Shown here: positions 24,855 to 58,861 of the stretch, piece by piece
Position numbering within the stretch: position 1 is the stretch's first letter
Layout of the letters: each line of letters begins with the position of its first letter
Source of the DNA: Metallosphaera tengchongensis
Lineage (GTDB): Archaea; Thermoproteota; Thermoprotei_A; Sulfolobales; Sulfolobaceae
DNA: 64,000 bases
NCBI RefSeq assembly: GCF_013343295.1
Contig: NZ_CP049074.1
Coordinates: 124,001 to 188,000 of the forward strand
Reading direction: 5' to 3'
Made by a program: the position numbers and the translations under genes
The notes under the pieces: model-generated
What the model saw: only the letters and a program-made list of their open reading frames with translations
What the model was told of the DNA's origin: nothing
The model's database searches: none

Positions 24855-25085
24855 GAGGGCTTTATATACCGCCAAAGGGTCTTGCCCCGGATGTGGGCCT
24901 GTATCCTGAAAGGTAGGTAAGACAATATAAAAGGTCCAAGGTGTGCGGGTTCCCCCACCGCCTAGGTGGGTCGGGGTCACTCCTTGGGGAGTGAGAGCGA
25001 GTCTTCCGCTCGACTCCCGTGAAGCCTAAGGGTCGGGGGTAGATATCAAACAACATGAAATTCTAAGAGACCCAAACCCCTAAGA
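24855..25085 (+). repeat. Decayed mobile-element 3' end, family PDVGLYPER, copy A
   Basis: This copy contains a short coding relic, APDVGLYPER (24884-24913), followed by three consecutive perfect hairpins: CCCACC/GGTGGG at 24954-24970, TCACTCC/GGAGTGA at 24977-24994, and GAGCG/CGCTC at 24995-25011. It then has the conserved core CGTGAAGCC with a GGGT partner, and ends ACCCAAACCCCT. Two related copies lie at 53905-54165 and 57085-57230. It is probably the 3' end of an IS200/IS605-type element; the family name is inference. Confidence 0.55.
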
Positions 25086-41290: not shown

Positions 41291-42457
41291 ATGGGACTTT
41301 CAGTTATGTTTAACGTGAGTCACAGCAGGAGTTTCTCACAGGAAGTCAAGGCAATGTTTAGAATAGTCCTTGTACCGGAGTCCAAGTTCGAAGCTAAGAG
41401 GTTTCACTACATAATCCTTCTGGACAGAAGTTACTCCATGGAAGGAGCGAAACTGGAGATGGCTAAGAGGGGGGCTGAACTCCTCATGGATAATTTGCCC
41501 GAGGATAGTTACCTTTCACTCATTTCGTTCAACGAAAAGGTAAGCGTGATTAAGGAACACGTCAGCTCGCTTTCCATGGAGGAATTGGACGAGGCGCATG
41601 AAGCCCTGAGCACAATTAAGCCAGGTAGCGGAACAAGTTTATATAAGGCACTTCAGGAGGCTTTCAAGATCTCAAAGAGATACCGAGATCCAACTTACCT
41701 AATCCTGCTGACCGACGGAGTGCCCACCGACATGGGATGCGTTTCTAGAGTGAGCAATAAATTCCGCTTGGAAGAGTGCCTCGAAGTATACGAGAAACTA
41801 GAAGTCCCTGAGGTAGTAGAGACCATATCCTTCGGTATAGGAGACGACTACAGTCCAGAGATACTCAGTAAGATATCAGAAAGGGGGAACGGTTTCTTCT
41901 ACCATATAAGCGACCCCTCAGAGATACCAGAAAAGATGCCCAAGATGGTCAAATCCAAGGTTGCTGCCAAGAACGTTGTGGTTGACCTTGTATCTGAGTC
42001 TCCCGTTAAGCTTCTCAACTACGAACAGTTACCTGTGAAGATAAATGCCGTCGAGGGAGTCGTGAAGATATTTGGAGAGGCTACAATCCCACCAAACTTT
42101 TCAGGGAAATTCATGGCTCTAAAGGTTAAGTATCAGGATGAAGGAGGGGAACAGAGAAAGGAGATTGATTTTAACCTAAAGGTAGCCAAAGATCAAAGTG
42201 AATTCCTGCAAGGTGTTGATAGGGACGTAATTATGGAATACCAATACATGCAGACCCTTAAGGGTTACTCGGAAGCACTTGAGAGCCAGAACCTAGTGGA
42301 AGCTACAAAGAGATTGGATAAGCTAAGGGAAATAGCAGAACAAACTAGGAGGCAGGACCTTATGGAGAGCACTAATGAAATGACTAAAAAGATGAACACA
42401 GGAGACGTCAAGGGAATTACCAGCGAGATTACAAGAAAGATGAGATCTCAAGAGTAG
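41291..42457 (+). CDS. VWA-domain protein
   Basis: The 388-residue protein has a von Willebrand factor A domain at about 35-225 with an intact MIDAS site: DRSYSM (DxSxS), GSGTSLYKAL (Thr), and LLTDGVPTD. A beta-rich segment follows, then a C-terminal helical region (EATKRLDKLREIAEQTRRQD), the layout of TerF- or YfbK-like VWA proteins. It is cytoplasmic. Such proteins often work with MoxR AAA ATPases or in signalling, but none is adjacent. The TATA box ACTTAAAC about 26-30 bases upstream suits ATG 41291. Confidence 0.85.
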   Translation: MGLSVMFNVSHSRSFSQEVKAMFRIVLVPESKFEAKRFHYIILLDRSYSMEGAKLEMAKRGAELLMDNLPEDSYLSLISFNEKVSVIKEHVSSLSMEELDEAHEALSTIKPGSGTSLYKALQEAFKISKRYRDPTYLILLTDGVPTDMGCVSRVSNKFRLEECLEVYEKLEVPEVVETISFGIGDDYSPEILSKISERGNGFFYHISDPSEIPEKMPKMVKSKVAAKNVVVDLVSESPVKLLNYEQLPVKINAVEGVVKIFGEATIPPNFSGKFMALKVKYQDEGGEQRKEIDFNLKVAKDQSEFLQGVDRDVIMEYQYMQTLKGYSEALESQNLVEATKRLDKLREIAEQTRRQDLMESTNEMTKKMNTGDVKGITSEITRKMRSQE

Positions 42458-42639
42458 TGACTATCTTCATGGAGTCTATCGGTCAATTTTCGGGTAAAGT
42501 TACTCGCTTAATTATCCATGTGGACGTCAGATCCTCTTATTATTGAGGTATTCATACCAGAATAATTCAGTTAAATCCGTGCTTTAGGACAATAATGTTA
42601 TATGAAAAATGTTATTACTCAAACAAGCAAGTTATAGCG

Positions 42640-43053
42640 ATGATTGAGTTCCTGGTTGTAAGGAGCTTCAAACCCCTAAGAAGAGAAACGGTTTGGGAAG
42701 TGATACGAGAAGTCAACTCCATGCCCCAGTATTGGAAGGGAATAAGGGAACTCAACGTAAGGCAAGTCTCTGATAGAACCTATGAGGGGGCAGTTAGATT
42801 TGCCTTTCCCTCGTCCTCCGACGTGAGGATAGATTTAGGCGAATTTTCCCTAACCATGAACTTCCTAAAAGGGATACTGAAGGGAATGAATAGGATCGAG
42901 GTCTCATCTACAGAGGTAACGTCCCACTGGAAAGTAGAGATGCCTCTCTACATGAAGCCGTTTGAAAAGAGGAACGAGGAACACTTCAGATCCGGTACGG
43001 AACACGCACTTGATAGGATATTAGAAGAAGCAAAGAGGAGAAGTCAAGGCTAA
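42640..43053 (+). CDS. SRPBCC (START-like) domain protein
   Basis: The 137-residue protein begins IEFLVVRSFKPLRRETVWEV, includes NSMPQYWKGIRELNV, and ends in a long helix (HFRSGTEHALDRILEEAKRR), the helix-grip layout of SRPBCC/polyketide-cyclase-like proteins that bind hydrophobic ligands. The ligand is unknown. ATG 42640 places the first strand right at the N-terminus, as usual in the family; the ATG at 42595 would add 15 residues unlike the fold. The gene lies beside the TnpB pseudogene. Confidence 0.65.
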   Translation: MIEFLVVRSFKPLRRETVWEVIREVNSMPQYWKGIRELNVRQVSDRTYEGAVRFAFPSSSDVRIDLGEFSLTMNFLKGILKGMNRIEVSSTEVTSHWKVEMPLYMKPFEKRNEEHFRSGTEHALDRILEEAKRRSQG

Positions 43054-43088
43054 TATGCGACTGGGTCGTTGAAAACCCGCTTGCTACT

Positions 43089-44234
43089 GACTTCCTCCTA
43101 GCCATGTGTTGATCCCCTCACCTGTCCGGAGTTACATCCCTAGTGTGGGGGCAGTCGAGAGGGCCAGAGAAACCCTCCCATAGAGGTTCATGACTGCGAT
43201 GACGTCAAGGTCGTTCTCATAACAGTATGGAGAACGGAAGTACCTGTAGGCGACCTCCTTCACTTTGTGACCCCACATATGGCAGCGAGTAGAGGAGTAG
43301 TGTGGGTCAACGTAGACTACTTTAAGCCAGTGTTTTTCCCTATCATTTAATACAGTACTGCGGTCTACGGTACTGCGTCGAGTACAGCCTGTCCCTAAAC
43401 TCTCCCGGAAGCTTCTTCACATTTTTGATGAGGTCGTTGAGGTCTTCAAGGGAGATGGTTGAGACTTTTAATGAGTTAGCTGTGTCTACTAACTACTTAC
43501 CTTTTTTATCGAGTCCCCTAAGACGTCCCTAGCTCTCTTGTGGTGAGACCTTGTCCTGCGTAGGATTATGTCCCCTTCCACCTCTTATCGTACTTCTGTA
43601 GGGACTCAGCTAGTGACTTGTTGTGGTGGGCGTTATCTAGCCCGGTCGTTACCCTGACGTACTTTTCGTCGTCTTTACCTAGTTCGAGTTCACCCATGAT
43701 GTCGGCTGCAACTCCGTTCTCAACTTCTAGTCCTTTCCACTCCTTGAGGAAGGAGACCTTGAAGTAGGCTTTTCAATCCCTCAGCATTAACCTACTCCCT
43801 CATTTGACAGTCCTTGTACTCTGGTAAGTCCATTAAATAACCTTCTATTGCGGTTCGCCAACTCCTGCTACCTTTACGATATTTTTGCCGAAGTCGGTTG
43901 AAGAGATAGGGTTGGGTTAACCATACAGAGACGTTAAGTACACTCAAATACCTACCGCATGCGCTGTTTAACCAGGATTTGTATACTGCGATGACGTCGC
44001 TATAGCAGTCTTGGGCAGCTTTAGAGGGTAGGTTGGACTTCTCTAAATGTCTCGTAAGTCCCCTTGTGCGTCTGTTAACAGGTTCTTTGGTCTATTTTCC
44101 CTTAACCAGTTGCGGACGAAACGTAGACCTTTTTCGTAACTAGATACGAGCGCGAGTAGAGGGGCGGTACGGGAAACCCTCATTGAAACCGTAGGTCTGA
44201 TTTCGATCCCACTCTCTTTAGCCCCTCTGCCCAT
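43089..44234 (-). pseudogene. tnpB: IS200/IS605 TnpB pseudogene, multiple frameshifts and stops
   Basis: On the minus strand most of a tnpB can be followed through several frames: the start (VSMRVSRTAPLLALVSSYEK, 44234-44043), SNLPSKAAQDCYSDVIAVYKSW (44020-43960), EKYVRVTTGLDNAHHNKSLAE (43665-43600), [20 protein letters not shown] (43445-43390), and the zinc-finger end [17 protein letters not shown] followed by [12 protein letters not shown] (43320-43190). Stops and shifts break it repeatedly, and CxxC has become CHMW. The right-end motif GACTTCCTCC lies at 43089. It cannot make an active RNA-guided nuclease. Confidence 0.85.
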
Positions 44235-49191: not shown

Positions 49192-50600
49192 ATGTCAGAA
49201 GAGTTAAATAAGAAAATAGCCGAATTGGCTTCAAGGGTTGATAGACTTCCTACCATAGTCTTACCCGTTTCCGTAATATTATCTTTAGCATTCGGCTACT
49301 TTATAGCGCTCTATGACGTAATAGATATCGGTCTCGCGTTCTCACCTGCATCTATAAGCTACACTGGCCTCACATCAAGTGAAGCTACAACCGTAGTTTC
49401 CATGGGGCTCTTTGGCTACATCCCAGGTGCTATAATCCTTGGATATTTAGCTGACAGGATTGGGAGAAAACCCACGTTAATACTAACCGCGTTGTTAACT
49501 GGTATAGGAAGTCTGGGCAACGCTTTGTCCGTTAATTTCGCAACCTTCATCATCTTCAGGTTCATAACAGGAATGGGAATTGGTGGAGATTTGATCCTAG
49601 TCCCAGTATATCTTGTGGAAATGGTTCCTGCCATAAAGAGGCCTCCTACTTTAACCTAGTTTACATAGCAGGTTGGGCTGGATTGGGTCTGGGTCCGTTC
49701 TTAGCTTCGGAGATAGTGCTCATTAACCCGGCTATAGGCTGGAGAGTAGTCTTCGGTATAGGTGCTACCTTAGCCTTCATAGTGCTTGTTATAAGATCCC
49801 ATGCCTCAGAGACCGTAAGGATGCTTGGCCTCAAGGGACATGTAGATCAGGCCGAAAAGGTTGTGAAGGAGATGGAGGAGAAGGCTATGAAAAGGACGGG
49901 ACTTAAGGAGTTGCCACCACCTCAGCCTCTTTCATTCCAAGTTAAGAAGGTAGATCCGTTCTACGTGTTCAAAAACCCAGTGTACAGGATAAGAGTGCTT
50001 GCAGTCATGCTAGCGATATTCTTCTTTTACTTCGGCGAGTATCCCTATTTGACGGAGTATCCGCTGTGGACTTCCACTTTCTTAGGTTACAAAGGTTCAC
50101 TAGGCGACGAGATCACTTTTCTGTTTGGACTAGCAGGAGTAGCTACGTTTCTGGGAGCTATCGGTCTAAGGTTCGTTGTGGAGAGAGTAAGGAGACCCAT
50201 CCTAGTTACTCTCAGTTACTTTGTAGGCATGCTACTTGGGGTGCTAGTGGCAGTTTATGGTGCCATAATAAAGGATGTAAACCTAGCTTTCGTAGGCATG
50301 TTACTAACGAACTTCATAGGAGTTGGCTGGAGTAACCAGCTGAACTACTTAAACGGGACTGAGAACGTGCCAACTTACGCAAGGGCTACGTCGTTTGCCT
50401 TCTCTGATGGCTTCGCTCATCTAGGGGCAGCCATATCTACTGCGATAATGTTCTCCATTATACCATTATTGGGGAGCTTAGGGACTTGGGTTCTGTTCCA
50501 AATACCGATGGTCATCATGGGGATCATACTCATTAAAGTATTGCCAAACACCATAGGCAAAAGCCTTGAAAGCGTTAACGAATCCCAGGCGGGAATATAG
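49192..50600 (+). pseudogene. MFS transporter interrupted by a -1 frameshift
   Basis: An MFS gene is read in one frame from ATG 49192 (LADRIGRKPTLI loop near residue 88) to VEMVPAIKR, where a stop follows at 49657-49659. The sequence continues in the -1 frame from about 49638 with EASYFNLVYIAGWAGLGLG and runs to 50600. Together the parts give a normal carrier of about 469 residues. Loss of one base in the AAGAGG run at 49636-49641 explains the break. It could be a recent pseudogene, a sequencing error or, less likely, programmed shifting. The promoter GTATTTAAG near 49158 looks intact. Confidence 0.8.
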
Positions 50601-51857: not shown

Positions 51858-53831
51858 CTACACCGTTCTCTGGGTGCCCACGATTACGAACCTGTCGCCT
51901 CTTCTCTGCAGGAGTTTCATTCTCATCAATTTTGCCAGAGTGTCCCTACCATACCTTGAAACTAGCTCACCTAATTCAAACTCCTTACCTTCATACTGCT
52001 GTAAAGCCATCCTCGCATCGAAAATCGACGGATCGTCGGAGTAGACTTTCCTGCATATCACCTCTATCTCGACGTCATGTTTCCTCATTTGTTCCCTTAT
52101 CCCTTTAAGTCCCACAAGGACGCATAAATCTGTTAAGTCACTCACGTTGAATCTTAGAAGATCCACGATGATCTCACGGGGAATGCCGGCTCTGGCTAGG
52201 TTGATTCCTTGGACAGGTACTCCGTACTTTATACTCAAGTGAATGTCTAGGGCCTTTCTGAACCTATCATCATTTAGAGCTCTCATTACCCTATACATGG
52301 CGAAGGATATCCAACGAGAATTGGAGATGAATTCGCCTATGTCCTTGTGGGAAAGCTTTACGCATAACCCTTCAATGCTCTCACCATTCATCCACTTGGA
52401 GAGAAGTTCCTTACCTTCCTTGCAACCCCTCAGGCTTGGGGCAACTTCTGGAGAAGAGACGATAGCGGTTATCAAGTCCTGCTCCTTGTTCTCTATGGGA
52501 AAACCCTTTAGCGCCTTCACATCAATGTAACTAATGGCAACAGCTCGCCCTAGGGGAGTTATACTGAGATGGTCTCTAAGCTCAAGAAGCTTCATTTCCC
52601 TGAGGCTTGTTACTGATCTCTCAACTTCGCTCTCATCAACTCCACGGAAGTTAAAGGTAGAGTTTATGGAATCCTTGAGCTTTTGAAAGTCTACTCTCTG
52701 GTTCCACGAAATGAACGCTAAAGAGAGTGTATCCAAATCTGGCCTACTCACCTCAGGGTTGGCAGTGCCTCTGAAGTACTTCCTAGAGTAGATCTCGGCG
52801 AAGACCTTATTGCTGGCAATGAGTATGGTCAAACCCTCCTTGTCGTACTTAGGCCTCCCTGCCCTTCCGGCTATCTGAAGGAACTCAGATCTCGAGATGT
52901 CCTTCCAACCCTTGAATTCCCCCTTCTCGTCTACTAGGGGAAGCTTCATCTCATAGAATACCACTGCGTAAACTGGGAGGTTAACTCCCTGTCCCAAAGC
53001 TGTCGTCGACACTACGGCGTTTAAGGAACCTTTGTATAGAAGGTCTAAGACCTTCTTCCTGTCCTCTTGAGACATCCCACTGTGGTAAAAAGAGGTTCTC
53101 AAACCCATCTTGTTCAGCTTGTCTGCAAGGATCTCCGCCGACTTCCTGCTCTTCACGAAAACCAGAGCGTTCTTTCCCATGGAGGAGATTTTCTCTAAGA
53201 CGTTGTAGAGAAGCTCCAGTTTGGGGAGGTTTCTAGTAGGCTTTACCTTAAAATTTTCTTCAATTCCATTGCTACATTTTAAGGTATATGGGTACGCTAT
53301 ACACTCGTGAAGCGGAACGGTTCTTTCCTTGTGGGAGATCAGCTTAGCGTCCAACCACTTAACGTATTTTTCAGGATTACTTAGGGTGGCGCTTAATGAG
53401 ATGAGCGGGACACCCTTTTCCTTTGCCCATAGGACTATGTTCTCAATCGCTAGGCTTCTCTCACCCTCCACGTTATGGATCTCGTCAATTATTACCCTCT
53501 TCACGTTCCCCAACCAACTGTAATCATGTCTGATTGCGCTGTCCAACTTCTCGTATGTTGCCAAGAGGACATCGCCCTTGAAGTGTCTCAAATCGTCTTC
53601 ATAGACGTCCGAGTCAGCTATCACTGCCCTGGTCCTGTCCTTAACATCAAGGTAAACTTCCCTTGAAAGGGCCTTGAGGGGAGAGACGTAGATTGATATC
53701 CCACCTCCCTCCAGTAGAACCACTTTAGCTAGATGAGTTTTACCTGAACCAGTTGGTGCAGAAACCAGGTAATTGCTGTTGGGATCCCTTCTGTAAGACG
53801 AGAAGAACATCTCTGCAAGAGGAAATGACAT
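51858..53831 (-). CDS. Ski2-like SF2 helicase, second Hel308-related protein
   Basis: The 657-residue protein shares the Ski2 layout: Walker A SAPTGSGKT near 24-32, YVSPLKALSREV, Walker B DEIH at 116-119, LSATLSNP, VFVKSRKSAE, STTALGQGVNLP and motif VI IAGRAGRPKYD, followed by winged-helix and ratchet-like segments (ITPLGRAVAISYI). Compared with Hel308 at 26927 it lacks most of the N-terminal Q-motif region and the last helix-hairpin-helix is less clear, though ARAGIPREIIVDLLRF resembles one. A DNA- or RNA-processing role is likely. The gene is divergent from the ABC cluster. Confidence 0.82.
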   Translation of the reverse strand: MSFPLAEMFFSSYRRDPNSNYLVSAPTGSGKTHLAKVVLLEGGGISIYVSPLKALSREVYLDVKDRTRAVIADSDVYEDDLRHFKGDVLLATYEKLDSAIRHDYSWLGNVKRVIIDEIHNVEGERSLAIENIVLWAKEKGVPLISLSATLSNPEKYVKWLDAKLISHKERTVPLHECIAYPYTLKCSNGIEENFKVKPTRNLPKLELLYNVLEKISSMGKNALVFVKSRKSAEILADKLNKMGLRTSFYHSGMSQEDRKKVLDLLYKGSLNAVVSTTALGQGVNLPVYAVVFYEMKLPLVDEKGEFKGWKDISRSEFLQIAGRAGRPKYDKEGLTILIASNKVFAEIYSRKYFRGTANPEVSRPDLDTLSLAFISWNQRVDFQKLKDSINSTFNFRGVDESEVERSVTSLREMKLLELRDHLSITPLGRAVAISYIDVKALKGFPIENKEQDLITAIVSSPEVAPSLRGCKEGKELLSKWMNGESIEGLCVKLSHKDIGEFISNSRWISFAMYRVMRALNDDRFRKALDIHLSIKYGVPVQGINLARAGIPREIIVDLLRFNVSDLTDLCVLVGLKGIREQMRKHDVEIEVICRKVYSDDPSIFDARMALQQYEGKEFELGELVSRYGRDTLAKLMRMKLLQRRGDRFVIVGTQRTV

Positions 53832-53904
53832 TCAACGAATTCTCTTGAATCCCTCATATAAGATTTTCTCGATAGTTAAGTCGTATAAGATTCATGGACG
53901 GGAG

Positions 53905-54165
53905 CTGCTCTAAGGAGTTTGGGTTCCATAGGATTTTATATTAATATAGTCCTCAACCCTTGGACTTCACGAAATTCGAGGAGGGCTCCCCCCCACATCA
54001 ACCTCATTAGCAAGAGGATCCTAACTCACTAGGTTGGGAAAGCCGCAAATCTCTGGCCCGGCAAGCTAGGCCCCTTTCGGGATATAAGCCCACGTCTGGG
54101 CAGGTCTCAGGATCCAGGTTTGATCATGTACAGCATAATAGCTTTATTATGAGACTATATAAACT
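53905..54165 (-). repeat. Decayed mobile-element 3' end, family PDVGLYPER, copy B
   Basis: Read on the minus strand it encodes ETCPDVGLYPERGLACRARD, uninterrupted up to a stop about 20 codons later, then has the structured core CGTGAAGTCCAAGGGTTGAGG and ends ACCCAAACTCCT. The PDVGLYPER codons differ from copy A only at synonymous positions, so it was coding until recently. A TTTATATAG box precedes it. It fills the divergent gap between a helicase and the ABC permease gene. Confidence 0.55.
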
Positions 54166-54256
54166 CAAGAGTCTGGGAAAACTGCTAACTACAATGTGTT
54201 AAAATTTTATGTAAGGAAAAAACTAAATTTAGATAAGGTGACTTTTTAGGTAAAAA

Positions 54257-55471
54257 GTGAAGTCTTGCTTTATGAAATCATTGGTGCTCGTGGTCATTTC
54301 CATTCTCTTGGTAATGCTAGGGATCACTCTTTCGATTTATGCCTCACAGACTCAGAGAATGTCAGTGGTCTCCTACGGATTTGGAAGCGTAGCCTATCCG
54401 CCCAACTATCAAGATCAATACTGGGCTGTACTATCAAAAGGCAGCCCAACTGGTCAAATAGTTTTAAACGGAACTGACATCCTCAACGTTTCTAATATCT
54501 CGCCAGTTAAGCTCAACTCCTCCTACTTTTACGTCTACGTCGTCACAGGGTATGTGGAGAATCTCGCCCCATTATCCCTCTTGGGTATACTTTTAGTTTT
54601 CACTGGAACGGCTATGGGATTTAGGGGAACGGTGCTTTTAGTCCAGGAAAAGGAGATAGGGAATTTAGCTAAATCTGAAATCCATGGATCAGTTAGTAAC
54701 TACATCCTGAAGAGGGTGTTGTCGTTCCTCGTTTCTATTTTGATCGTATCCACCGTTACGGCTGGGCTTGAGATAGTTTCCGGTGAGGGGATATCTAAGG
54801 TCGCTTCTGAGCTACTCACCTTTAACTTCGGGTACAGCAGGCATTTTTCCATTAGCGTAGACTCCCTTCTGTTGACCTCTCTGCCATACACAAGCATGTT
54901 GTCCGGGATTTCCTTCGCTTTGTCAGTATATCTCGGTTCGTACCTCGCTATAAGGAGCGTTACACAGAAGGGGATCTTGAGTAAGATCATTTCAAAGTGG
55001 AAGTATGTAGGGAACGCCTTAGCCTCCTGGGTCATAGCCTTGACCCTGATATATGCGTTCCACCTTAGGGTAGAGAACGGAGAGAGCATAGTGTTCCCCA
55101 TCGTTTCCCTTTTCTTTCCCTTCGTAGGTACATTTGCCAACAGGCTCTTTCTGCCAACAGCTTTGCCTAACCCCATAAAAGCCAAGGGACTGTCGAGGTC
55201 TATCATTATCTACAGACACGTTTTAGGAAACGCATCGGTGGTTGCTCTATCCACTATTTCAACCGCCTTCATTGACATGCTCATCTCCGAGTTCCTGGTT
55301 GAATCCATCTTTTATTGGCCTGGGCTTGGTCTCCTTCTGAGGATAGGTGCCCTATATGGAGATTTCAAGTTAATTGAGGGAGTTCTCATTTTCTACTCTT
55401 CAATAGTGCTTCTGTCAGGACTGATAGGAGACATTTTTTACGGGTTCATTGACCCCAGGGTGAGACGATGA
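54257..55471 (+). CDS. Dipeptide/oligopeptide-type ABC permease (DppB-like)
   Basis: The 404-residue protein has an N-terminal signal-anchor helix (VVISILLVMLGITLSIYAS), an extracellular loop with N-glycosylation sequons (about 35-100), and then five or six membrane segments. The C-terminal block ALSTISTAFIDMLISEFLVE then FYWPGLGLLLRIGA resembles the DppB EAA region. GTG 54257 is the first start and agrees with an AT-rich box near 54225; ATG 54272 is an alternative. The stop overlaps the second permease (ATGA), and three genes form one operon. Confidence 0.75.
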   Translation: MKSCFMKSLVLVVISILLVMLGITLSIYASQTQRMSVVSYGFGSVAYPPNYQDQYWAVLSKGSPTGQIVLNGTDILNVSNISPVKLNSSYFYVYVVTGYVENLAPLSLLGILLVFTGTAMGFRGTVLLVQEKEIGNLAKSEIHGSVSNYILKRVLSFLVSILIVSTVTAGLEIVSGEGISKVASELLTFNFGYSRHFSISVDSLLLTSLPYTSMLSGISFALSVYLGSYLAIRSVTQKGILSKIISKWKYVGNALASWVIALTLIYAFHLRVENGESIVFPIVSLFFPFVGTFANRLFLPTALPNPIKAKGLSRSIIIYRHVLGNASVVALSTISTAFIDMLISEFLVESIFYWPGLGLLLRIGALYGDFKLIEGVLIFYSSIVLLSGLIGDIFYGFIDPRVRR

Positions 55472-56217
55472 GGAAAACTGTTCTAGCTCTTAGCGTTTAC
55501 CTAGCGTGGGCTTTGATTTTCTCCCTATACCACCTCCCTTCAGGCAAGCCCCTCCTTCCGCCGTCAATTTCTCATCCCTTAGGAACGTATGTAAATGGTT
55601 TAGACATGATAAACGTTAACGCCAGGGCAGTTGTAGATACTTTATTATTCGGCCTTTTGGTGTCGTCTGTGGAAGTGGCAATAGGGATCACGTATGGAGC
55701 GCTTGCAGGTAACCTATGTGGTACTGTCAGATCCGTAATGATGAGGGTAGCTGATGGTGTAAACTCCCTCCCTAGAGTACCTCTTCTCATGGCTATCATA
55801 CTCCTCTTCGCCACACCTGAGATAACTTTCGTTAAGGCCAACTTTTTCCTGACGGCGATTGTGGTAGCTCTCACGGGCTGGCCTGTAATCTCGAGGCAGG
55901 CATCAGAAATCCTTTGCAAGCAAAATCCAATATCAGGGGTGGATGTAATTCCGCTTATGGATAAACTGAAAAGCAGCTACGGTTACGTACTACCCATAAT
56001 TAAAAGGTACTCCATTATTTCTGTCATAGACGGTGTAGCCGTTTACACTGCCCTTGGAGTCATAGCTGGGGTTGGTGACCCGAACTACCCAACGCTGACT
56101 ACTCTATTAAATAGTTCAAGACTGTTCGCCTACTGGTGGCTCTTCCTACCCCCAGCAGCTTTCAGAGCGCTTTTCCTAGTTCTTCTATTCTTGGTATCTG
56201 ATTATGTGGTGAAATGA
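55468..56217 (+). CDS. Dipeptide/oligopeptide-type ABC permease (DppC-like)
   Basis: The 249-residue protein has about six membrane segments. LLFGLLVSSVEVAIGITYGALAG, then RVADGVNSLPRVPLLMAIILL, matches DppC-type permeases, and ILCKQNPISGVDVIPLMD occupies the EAA-loop position. Compared with usual DppC (about 280-300 residues) it has a short N-terminus. Its ATG overlaps the upstream stop by four bases, and the next gene starts one base after its own stop. Confidence 0.75.
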   Translation: MRKTVLALSVYLAWALIFSLYHLPSGKPLLPPSISHPLGTYVNGLDMINVNARAVVDTLLFGLLVSSVEVAIGITYGALAGNLCGTVRSVMMRVADGVNSLPRVPLLMAIILLFATPEITFVKANFFLTAIVVALTGWPVISRQASEILCKQNPISGVDVIPLMDKLKSSYGYVLPIIKRYSIISVIDGVAVYTALGVIAGVGDPNYPTLTTLLNSSRLFAYWWLFLPPAAFRALFLVLLFLVSDYVVK

Positions 56218-56218
56218 G

Positions 56219-57061
56219 TTGTTAAAGTACGATTGTTTGACGGTAGGGACTGAATTACATTGCCTCACTGCTGAGATCGATAAGACGTCAGTAGGGATCC
56301 TGGGGGAAAGGGATAGCGGGAAGGAGCTTCTCATTCCTGCTACTCTGGGTTTGATAGATGGAGTAAGCGGTTCGATATACTTAGATAACATCGACTTGGT
56401 TAAGTCTAGAGACTTGCTAGATAGGATCAGGTGGAGGAGAATTTCCGCGGTATTTTACGATCCCTTCACCATGTTCAACCCACTCTACGATGTCGCTTCA
56501 CATTTCTCTGAAATCGTAGTCTCACATAACTTAGGTAATGAGGAGTTTGGAATAGAGGTTGGATTGGAATACGTTAAACTTCTCGGTTTAGATGGCACGA
56601 TAATGAGTAAACTCCCCCATCAACTATCTCCTCTCCATGCCAAGAAAGTTGCCATAGCCCTCGCCACCTTTCTGGAGCCAGACTACATCCTTATAGACGA
56701 CATAGAATTTGGTTTGAGTGATATTGGAAGAGCGTCCTTGATTAACTCCCTTATAGACCTGATGGGGACTGTGAGGAGCACATTCGTGTTCTTGGATAAC
56801 AACCCTGCAATCCTATCGAGACTCACGGATTACGTTATTGTCCTTTTCAAGGGAAGGACCGTGGAAGAGGGATACAGAATCTTGGAAAACCCGCTGCACC
56901 CTTACCTCATTGATCTGATAAGAGGAGAAATTAAGGACACCAATGTTTTGGGTGAGGGGTGCCCTTACTCATCCCAGTGTCGTTTTTCAACTAGTAAATG
57001 CAAAACTGAAGTTCCGTGGGTTTCGTTGGATGGGCGTAAGGTGAGGTGCCTAGGGGTCTGA
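56219..57061 (+). CDS. Degenerate ABC ATPase-like protein (DppD-type) with four-cysteine C-terminus
   Basis: The 280-residue protein aligns along its length with DppD/OppD ATPases, but the catalytic motifs are altered. Walker A is GERDSGKE (for GESGSGKS), the signature LSGGQ is LSPLH (HQLSPLHAKKVAIAL), Walker B ends LIDDIEFGLSD (for DEPTSALD) and the H-loop His is missing (FLDNNPA). The C-terminal oligopeptide-transporter domain is well kept, with four cysteines spaced CX5CX6CX15C (GCPYSSQC...C...VRC). It starts at TTG 56219, one base after the permease stop. It may bind nucleotide poorly or not at all, and regulate or scaffold the transporter. Confidence 0.75.
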   Translation: MLKYDCLTVGTELHCLTAEIDKTSVGILGERDSGKELLIPATLGLIDGVSGSIYLDNIDLVKSRDLLDRIRWRRISAVFYDPFTMFNPLYDVASHFSEIVVSHNLGNEEFGIEVGLEYVKLLGLDGTIMSKLPHQLSPLHAKKVAIALATFLEPDYILIDDIEFGLSDIGRASLINSLIDLMGTVRSTFVFLDNNPAILSRLTDYVIVLFKGRTVEEGYRILENPLHPYLIDLIRGEIKDTNVLGEGCPYSSQCRFSTSKCKTEVPWVSLDGRKVRCLGV

Positions 57062-57084
57062 CCAGAAGGAAAGGCAAGATAAAG

Positions 57085-57230
57085 ACTGCAGGGGTTTGGG
57101 TTTCATCTTTCATACTGTCTAATATCAATCCTTAACCCATGGGCTTCACTGGAGTCAAGGAAACTACTTCCACTCACCTTCCACCTGTTTAGCGAGATAA
57201 CATACTATTAAGATATATGTGCCACATGGT
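57085..57230 (-). repeat. Decayed mobile-element 3' end, family PDVGLYPER, copy C
   Basis: On the minus strand this short copy keeps only the end of the family: a degenerate ATGTGG...TATATCTTAATAG segment, then AGTGAAGCCCATGGGTTAAGG, GATATTAGACAGTATGAAA and ACCCAAACCCCTG. It lies between two convergent genes. Together with copy B, in the same orientation, it brackets the two permease genes and the ATPase-like gene. Confidence 0.5.
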
Positions 57231-57251
57231 TTACGAGAACTCGTTAGATCT

Positions 57252-58049
57252 TCATTGGTGCCAATATTTCCAGCACTTTACCTTTGACGCACCTAAATCC
57301 CACATTGGTGGCTTTTCTAGCCTGCACTTTCTTTGCAGGACCTTATCGACCTTGAGGAACTGACAGTAGTCGTGAAAGACACATCCGCTTGGGCTTCCTC
57401 TGCCAACTTCCACTACGTTTAACTTCTCACCTTTTCTTCCTATTTTAGTTGATGAGTTGTTAAGAGCCATTGTGTAGGGATGCAACAGACCTCCGCCCTC
57501 TTCTACAATTTCTCCGTCATACATAACATAAATTTGATCACACGGGAACAGTAAATCGGTAGTGCTTATCATTAACAATGCGTCCATCCTTTTGCTCCTC
57601 AAGATTTTGAAAAGATATTTTAGCGCCCTAAATTTTCCCTGTTCTTCAATTAACTGAAAGAAGTCCTCTATTACCGCGAACTTTACATTTTCCTTAAGCA
57701 ACGGGGACATGTAAACCTTTGACAAATTAACGTCACTAATATTGTTCAGATTGTCGTCTGGGATATCAAGAAGAAACATGACCTCCTCAGCCCTCTTACT
57801 AGACCTAAACCATCCTGCAAGAAGGTCCTTGGAGTTCATGTTTCCCCTTCTCATCTCCCTGGGAACTACGTAAGTCGCCTTGGCTCCCTCAGATTTGCTT
57901 AAGTAAGCCCCAGTGTAGGGATCTAGATATTGGATTTCTCCAATACCTTTCCTTAGTTTTAAGGATAGGTTACTCTTGTCCTCTCCCCATTCCCCCAAAA
58001 TACAGGTGACGTTTTTTACTTCAATTGATGGGTCTTTAAGGGAAATCAT
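57252..58049 (-). CDS. Degenerate ABC ATPase-like protein (DppF-type) with four-cysteine C-terminus
   Basis: The 265-residue protein keeps the frame of a DppF/OppF ATPase but has lost its motifs. The Walker A position reads GEWGEDKSN, there is no LSGGQ (NLSKVYMSPLLKENVKFAVIEDFF), Walker B is VIEDFF (Asp-Glu order changed), and no H-loop His is present. What remains normal is the end: DGEIVEEGG, HPYTMAL, and SGCVFHDYC...C...VKCW with spacing CX5CX12CX16C. It is convergent with the DppD-like gene, so it is transcribed separately. The promoter TTTTTATATTT lies near 58087. It probably partners the DppD-like protein. Confidence 0.7.
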   Translation of the reverse strand: MISLKDPSIEVKNVTCILGEWGEDKSNLSLKLRKGIGEIQYLDPYTGAYLSKSEGAKATYVVPREMRRGNMNSKDLLAGWFRSSKRAEEVMFLLDIPDDNLNNISDVNLSKVYMSPLLKENVKFAVIEDFFQLIEEQGKFRALKYLFKILRSKRMDALLMISTTDLLFPCDQIYVMYDGEIVEEGGGLLHPYTMALNNSSTKIGRKGEKLNVVEVGRGSPSGCVFHDYCQFLKVDKVLQRKCRLEKPPMWDLGASKVKCWKYWHQ

Positions 58050-58159
58050 AGTGTAGCTCTTAACTGAACTTCAGTTGTGAGAAATATAAAAACGAGCCGA
58101 ACTAGCTACAGAGGTTCGCACTACTGTTGCTAACATGTATATACCTAGGTCGATAGATG

Positions 58160-58524
58160 CTACCTTGTTACCTATGGGCGAGTCTATTTGTGTTTTGCCC
58201 CCCACCGTGAATTATGAGGGAGTCCTTGATGGGCTTACCAGACCTCTTTGTTATAACTCTACCCACGTCCATGGGTGTGTGGGCTTAGAACTTGTTATCT
58301 ATGCGTATCTCTAGCCTACCTTGAGTACCAGACCGCCTTTACCTTCCTGAGGAGGGTGTCTCCATCTTCCAGTCCTTCAGAATTAGCACGTGTTTCTCTT
58401 CGTCAACCTCGTAGCGGTCTTGCCTAACTACGAGGATTAGCTTCCTCTTCCCGTCCTCTGTCCAGTGACCCGGTGGCGGTACGTAGTTGACGAAGGGCGG
58501 TAGACTATCTTCATTCTTCAGCAA
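58160..58524 (-). pseudogene. tnpB: TnpB central fragment (IS200/IS605)
   Basis: The minus strand encodes [14 protein letters not shown], then RKLILVVRQDRYEVDEEKHV and LKDWKMETPSSGR, followed after a stop by TQGRLEIRIDNK and THTPMDVGRVITKRSG-like sequence (first residue uncertain). These are the central beta-domain segments of Sulfolobales TnpB. The start and the nuclease part are missing, and it directly abuts the plus-strand fragment at 58526. Confidence 0.7.
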
Positions 58525-58525
58525 T

Positions 58526-58703
58526 GAAGTATCCCACAGATATTTTCGTCGTGTTGATTGTGGTTATGAGAATGACCGCGATGTCATCGCAATAATCAAC
58601 CTTTATGGGAGGATCCTTGAGCCTCTCGGCTGCCCCTCAAATGAGAGATGTAAACCCGAATCGATGAGGGACTCTCACCTTTTAGGGCTTGGAGGAAGTC
58701 AGC
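58526..58703 (+). pseudogene. tnpB: TnpB C-terminal zinc-finger fragment with its right end (IS200/IS605)
   Basis: The plus strand encodes [20 protein letters not shown] then IINLYGR, the end of the TnpB zinc finger and the last RuvC Asp region (the first Cys of CPSC has become Arg-Val-Asp). After further decayed sequence it reaches the right-end motif at 58671-58703 (ACTCTCACCTTTTAGGGCTT, then GGAGGAAGTCAGC), here on the plus strand. It and the minus-strand fragment beside it meet head to head, implying an inversion plus deletion. Confidence 0.7.
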
Positions 58704-58861
58704 ACAAGTAAGCAGACTCTACATTCTCGACCTAGACCTCATTACCGTCGTTTCCTTGTGGGGTGGAACCATCTTGGACTACCTCAAGAGGGACTTGCGC
58801 GAGGCACTAAATCACCCTTATATAGTTTGAGCTTAACTTCAATACGATCGTGTGATTTTCC

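Follow-up and report, generated by a model that had tools for sequence, protein, structure and literature searches.

A selectively maintained pseudo-ABC gene set of the Sulfolobaceae, probably derived from a Dpp/Opp-type peptide importer

Peptide importers of the Dpp/Opp type, such as DppABCDF and OppBCDF of Escherichia coli, the system of Thermoanaerobacter DppD (4FWI), and DppABCD and OppABCD of Mycobacterium tuberculosis, combine two permeases with two ATPase-fold proteins that carry C-terminal four-cysteine domains of the [4Fe-4S] type, in the gene order B-C-D-F. In the E. coli Dpp system, both catalytic glutamates together are required for ATPase activity, DppA is needed for that activity and is contacted by the scoop, and coupling helices connect the permeases with the ATPases (PMC12136057). 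The [4Fe-4S] ligands of DppD/DppF in this system are Cys284/290/297/315 and Cys293/299/306/323, and cysteine-to-serine changes or oxidation of the clusters dissociate the complex (PMC12136057). Degenerate ABC sites as such are already well known. TAP/ABCB2-B3, CFTR/ABCC7, TM287/288 and Pdr5 show a selective and conserved catalytic loss within an ABC pair under purifying selection, and transporters of these types keep one canonical hydrolysing site (PMC7756269). Here, we describe a Dpp/Opp-derived set of four genes, perm1, perm2, atpD and atpF, which lies in a stretch of 64,000 nucleotides (hereafter the window) comprising bases 124001-188000 of the single-contig, 2.18-Mb genome of Metallosphaera tengchongensis. 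The Dpp/Opp systems are the best sequence and fold matches of this set, which shares their subunit composition, their four-cysteine domains and, in its relatives, their gene order. Unlike them, it lacks an intact ATP site, a scoop loop and a binding protein, its coupling helices are eroded, and its DppB-like subunit carries an extra N-terminal domain. The features of the set are listed in Table 1.

Table 1. Features of the four-gene set in the window (positions are those of the window)
Feature	Position	Strand	Description
perm1	54257..55471	+	DppB-derived permease, 404 aa; PF00528; orthologues 42-67%
perm1 N-terminal extension	54257..54700	+	residues 1-148; without known family
perm2	55468..56217	+	DppC-derived permease, 249 aa; Opp4C match and alignments
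atpD	56219..57061	+	DppD-like pseudo-ATPase, 280 aa; PDB profile matches to OppD/DppD
atpD P-loop GERDSGKE	56303..56326	+	residues 29-36
atpD signature position LSPLH (canonical LSGGQ)	56621..56635	+	residues 135-139
atpD Walker B YILIDD (LIDDIE region)	56684..56701	+	alignment of 17 copies
atpD H-loop FVFLDNNPA	56783..56809	+	alignment of 17 copies
atpD C-terminal four-cysteine domain	56960..57049	+	C248/C254/C261/C277, CX5CX6CX15C
atpF	57252..58049	-	DppF-like pseudo-ATPase, 265 aa; orthologues 27-55%
atpF P-loop remnant GEWGEDKSN	57969..57995	-	alignment of 17 copies
atpF C-terminal four-cysteine domain	57273..57383	-	C223/C229/C242/C259, CX5CX12CX16C
TATA-like element	58082..58093	-	possible own promoter of relocated atpF; read from sequence

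Both ATPase-like subunits are homologous to DppD and DppF over their full length, including the C-terminal oligo_HPY region. For atpD, ABC_tran scores 32.8 bits, oligo_HPY matches weakly, and the profile match to 4FWI has an E-value of 7.6e-43, while atpF matches the same structure along its whole length (E=6.1e-15) and gave a weak oligo_HPY match as its sole Pfam-type match; the oligo_HPY scores of the two proteins, 20.9 and 23.4, lie under the gathering cut-off of 27.1. A predicted model of atpD, which is of low confidence overall (pLDDT 56) and good at residues 80-190, likewise has 4fwi as its best PDB match in Foldseek (E=1.5e-11). PADLOC returned only weak generic ABC matches.

The permeases form a pair of the BPD_transp_1 type, perm1 by its Pfam match (PF00528, 54.4 bits, residues 224-404, within the C-terminal two thirds of the protein) and perm2 by alignment together with a match to the NCBIfam model Opp4C that is far under the cut-off (E=1.3e-13), models of the DppC type also scoring below theirs. 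Their membrane cores are highly conserved, with a mean column identity of 61%. The initial annotation of the locus held that the permeases look functional, a view not borne out as stated, given the absence of elements through which a Dpp importer is coupled to its ATPases and its binding protein. In perm1, the stretch from TM1 to the NxG motif, which contains the scoop in canonical DppB, is about 31-53 residues shorter than in the canonical proteins of the same genome or of related ones, and the coupling helix is shortened as well, so that KGL...YRH alone remains of the canonical DYIxxARAKG-type sequence. Similarly, perm2 is without the coupling-loop sequence (canonical YVEAAxxxGxxxxRIxFRH) and without the GDxLRDxLDPR-type C-terminus of DppC; neither permease thus has a canonical coupling (EAA) helix, and the DppB-like subunit has no scoop loop. 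No match to SBP_bac_5 occurs in the window, as had been said of substrate-binding proteins at the outset, and the two SBP_bac_5 (PF00496) proteins of the genome adjoin its two intact systems, which leaves no spare or orphan binding protein of that family. Because the genome also holds two intact pairs of Dpp ATPases, it is conceivable that perm1 and perm2 borrow these active ATPases, with atpD and atpF regulating assembly. This is very unlikely, since neither permease has the coupling-helix sequences gripped by canonical ATPases, and atpD has a strongly conserved permease-facing segment of its own (residues 77-103, permease contact by homology; conservation of 0.75 versus 0.52 in intact paralogues, in groups that differ in diversity).

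At its N-terminus, perm1 carries an extension of about 148 residues, which is absent from the canonical DppB of the same genomes, perm1 matching OppB/DppB structures solely from profile position 175 onward. The extension consists of a hydrophobic helix, a segment of about 75 residues predicted to be extracytoplasmic, and a second hydrophobic helix, as judged from hydrophobicity and the positive-inside rule, and its central segment bears the conserved motifs YG.G..A.PP..WQ..YW and FYVY..GY. It has no match in Pfam or in the PDB, and among 398 genomes of the phylum it is confined to this gene set, apart from two marginal partial matches. The predicted structure of perm1 (pLDDT 37.5) was unusable.

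The ATP-site motifs of 17 copies each of atpD and atpF were compared with those of 39 canonical paralogues, all of which are intact (39/39), their catalytic positions being conserved wherever they are aligned. In the set, by contrast, the signature, the Q-loop glutamine and the H-loop histidine are replaced in every copy of both subunits, and the P-loop serine or threonine is replaced nearly always, the substitutes in atpD being mostly the same residues across copies. In atpD, the P-loop lysine is kept in 17/17 copies and the adjoining serine/threonine has become glutamate in 16 of them, the Q-loop glutamine has become tyrosine, serine or proline, the first glycine of the signature proline (15/17), the D-loop aspartate serine, asparagine or glycine (16/17), and the H-loop (switch) histidine asparagine (16/17) or serine (1/17). 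In its Walker B motif, the canonical D-E corresponds to D160-D161, and the catalytic glutamate is aspartate at position 161 in all 17 copies, in a register that is ungapped and backed by a conserved leucine before the D-loop and in which a shift by one residue is improbable; this register speaks against the reading of Glu to Ile that had been considered. The second subunit, atpF, is more degenerate: its signature is absent from 17/17 copies, the histidine is lost as well, no Q-loop glutamine is aligned, the Walker B region reads VIEDFF, and the P-loop lysine is kept in just 11 of the 17. The motif strings and both cysteine spacings given in the initial annotation are all present; its statement that Walker A, signature and Walker B had been lost stands for the altered P-loop and signature, and is to be softened for atpD, where the lysine is kept and Walker B is altered from Glu to Asp instead of being lost in full.

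Since the signature is lost from both subunits, neither composite site, made up of a P-loop and the partner's signature, is canonical. The set therefore differs both from Dpp/Opp importers, in which Walker A/B, signature, Q-loop and H-loop are functional, and from degenerate-site transporters, which retain one consensus ATP site, a canonical signature being found in 0/17 genomes in either subunit. Productive ATP hydrolysis is very probably absent. The retention of the P-loop lysine and two Walker B acids makes nucleotide binding or slow hydrolysis by atpD possible by sequence, and atpD may bind nucleotide. It could accordingly be argued that the set remains an ABC importer with unorthodox ATPases, in which ATP is bound and slowly hydrolysed via Lys35, Asp160 and Asp161 of atpD; the lysine and the second Walker B acid are each present in 17/17 copies, and among the changes in degenerate human sites Glu to Asp ranks second in frequency, such sites being still able to bind ATP (PMC7756269). 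We consider this reading unlikely, because degenerate-site transporters have their other site canonical, whereas here the signature is found in neither subunit, the P-loop serine/threonine is glutamate, the Q-loop, D-loop and H-loop residues are replaced, and the coupling helices and scoop needed for using ATP are eroded too.

Of the 31 Sulfolobaceae genomes, 17 carry orthologous sets with the gene order perm1-perm2-atpD-atpF; these are all the sampled members of 5 of the 11 genera, and the remaining six genera have none. They are present in 6/6 genomes of the genus of the window, one of them strongly diverged, and in four further genera, g3 (2/2), g7 (2/2), g10 (3/3) and g11 (4/4); named matches are Metallosphaera javensis, Candidatus Aramenus sulfurataquae and 'Sulfolobus sp. 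UBA167'. When the 398 phylum genomes were searched with an atpD profile, the members of the set scored 423-475 bits and all others at most about 170 bits, and neither an orthologous set in other sampled Thermoproteota nor a close orthologue with intact motifs was found, the next-best matches (<=170 bits) having canonical motifs in those inspected. The seventeenth copy (genome G005, L107:3808-7400), which belongs to the genus of the window, is detected by the profile search and missed at the first BLAST threshold, and its pseudo-ATPases are even more degenerate, with the P-loop region GLLALDQIMKREL. In 200/200 bootstrap trees, the atpD copies fall on one side of a branch, as do the atpF copies, a grouping which indicates that each set of motif changes is ancestral and has been kept; judged from these sequences, the atpD and atpF lineages have a single origin each. 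The best explanation, and a probable one, is that the set was derived once, within the Sulfolobaceae, from a Dpp/Opp-type peptide importer.

In close pairs (dS 0.04-0.39), the permeases had pairwise dN/dS values (NG86) of 0.08-0.14, while atpD ranged over 0-0.10 and atpF over 0.07-0.28; more distant pairs, in which dS is near saturation, gave 0.03-0.11. In one species pair, atpD gave 0.029 and atpF 0.055, whereas four intact Dpp ATPases fell within 0.012-0.030 and the helicase next to the set had 0.068. All four genes are under purifying selection, and atpD is as constrained as its intact paralogues. That the set is the decaying remnant of a peptide transporter might be suspected from the motif loss and from the position of atpF in M. 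tengchongensis, where it is displaced and inverted beside repeats. The comparative data refute this, leaving it a practically negligible chance, since the frames are intact in 17 genomes, dN/dS is far below 1 and the replacement residues are themselves conserved. A changed job rather than decay had been proposed from the outset. The case against decay holds, as the altered motifs are common to close relatives (16-17 genomes, versus 39 intact paralogues) and each of the four genes has dN/dS values well under 1; the jobs named at that time, a channel, sensor or redox-gated complex, are candidates.

The genes of the set overlap or lie at most about 50 bases apart, which makes them an operon in all genomes with the set except M. 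tengchongensis, in which atpF is inverted. Here, positions 51858-58049 of the window are rearranged: in relatives, perm1, perm2, atpD, atpF and a helicase gene are all co-directional, and atpF directly follows atpD in every other copy, whereas in M. tengchongensis the helicase gene is upstream on the minus strand. The ancestral neighbours, an ArnB-like VWA gene and an SRPBCC-like gene, are now at 41291-43044. Dispersed repeats that are about 69-74% identical edge the rearranged segments (53909-53980, 57090-57159 and 25009-25085; 58563-58702 and 43087-43223), and a putative insertion-sequence remnant, for which Pfam gave no confirmation, is located at about 58150-58850; repeats and remnant are a possible cause of the atpF inversion. 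A gene for a sugar-type MFS transporter, also in the window (49192-50600), is frameshifted and probably broken: it is split into one frame at 49192-49659 and another at 49683-50600, and these cover successive portions of PF00083.

The four C-terminal cysteines are invariant in 16/16 aligned copies of both atpD and atpF, and in alignments both regions correspond to the 4FWI [4Fe-4S] domain. The cysteine spacing of atpD is close to that of the E. coli ligands, and Metallosphaera atpF has a longer middle gap. The fit to the ligand pattern of solved DppD/DppF agrees with the initial suggestion of a [4Fe-4S] site, and by analogy with E. coli the clusters of atpD and atpF would be structural and possibly redox-sensitive. 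Two further cysteines of atpD, C6 and C15 (window 56234-56263, residues 6-15), are on the first two predicted beta-strands and are invariant in 16/16 orthologues, and they are found neither in intact DppD nor in the diverged copy of G005; they possibly form a disulfide or a metal site.

On the best reading of these sequences, the four genes would now serve another membrane job than ATP-driven peptide import, and together they probably encode an ancient, selectively maintained pseudo-ABC complex that arose from a Dpp/Opp-type importer. In such a complex, atpD and atpF would dock beneath perm1 and perm2 as a heterodimeric cap held together by the [4Fe-4S]-type C-terminal domains, and this cap would act as a structural element or gate, with transport not powered by ATP hydrolysis. 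On the outside, the N-terminal domain of perm1 would stand in for the binding protein. The complex would most likely be a passively gated facilitator or channel, or a receptor, with an external ligand, and possibly cluster oxidation as well, determining its state. A gated permeation path has, in our judgement, an even chance of being correct. The same holds for the fuller proposal, in which a whole importer has become a channel or receptor that needs neither ATP nor a binding protein and is gated by redox state or by a ligand. Its two pseudo-ATPases would be Fe-S-capped, its DppB-like subunit would have a new sensory domain fused to it, and it would form a stable pseudo-transporter family specific to the Sulfolobaceae. 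The location of atpF outside the operon in M. tengchongensis is a point against a four-protein assembly.

A receptor, sensor or scaffold devoid of transport, in which ligand sensing falls to the extracytoplasmic domain of perm1 and the two pseudo-ATPases jointly offer a regulated cytoplasmic surface to a partner protein, is a tentative and less likely reading. It draws on the conserved perm1 extension that is unique to this gene set, and on the conserved Glu36, signature-position proline and Asn194 on the former nucleotide face of atpD, as would be expected of a new binding surface. However, no conserved partner gene adjoins the set across the genera examined, and the conserved membrane cores would be explained no less well if a path or a ligand site had been retained. 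Neighbouring genes considered as functional hints, namely those for an M28 or M32 peptidase and a P-type ATPase and the ArnB-like, helicase, MFS and regulator genes, were set aside, being genus-specific with none in common.

The proposed gated complex resembles CFTR, an ABC protein turned channel whose gating still uses ATP, in employing an ABC scaffold as a gated path, but CFTR is an exporter-type single chain, and the kinship is at superfamily level only. The set also differs from the degenerate-site transporters in that the signature is missing from both composite sites and the loss reaches the permeases. Within the open-licence PMC literature searched, no maintained importer lineage was found that has lost both ATP sites, the coupling machinery and the binding-protein dock, nor anything relevant to this family in the Sulfolobales. 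The set is a natural test of what the ABC scaffold is able to do without ATP hydrolysis, and since the cluster ligands have outlived catalysis here, it also bears on the purpose of the [4Fe-4S] clusters of Dpp ATPases.
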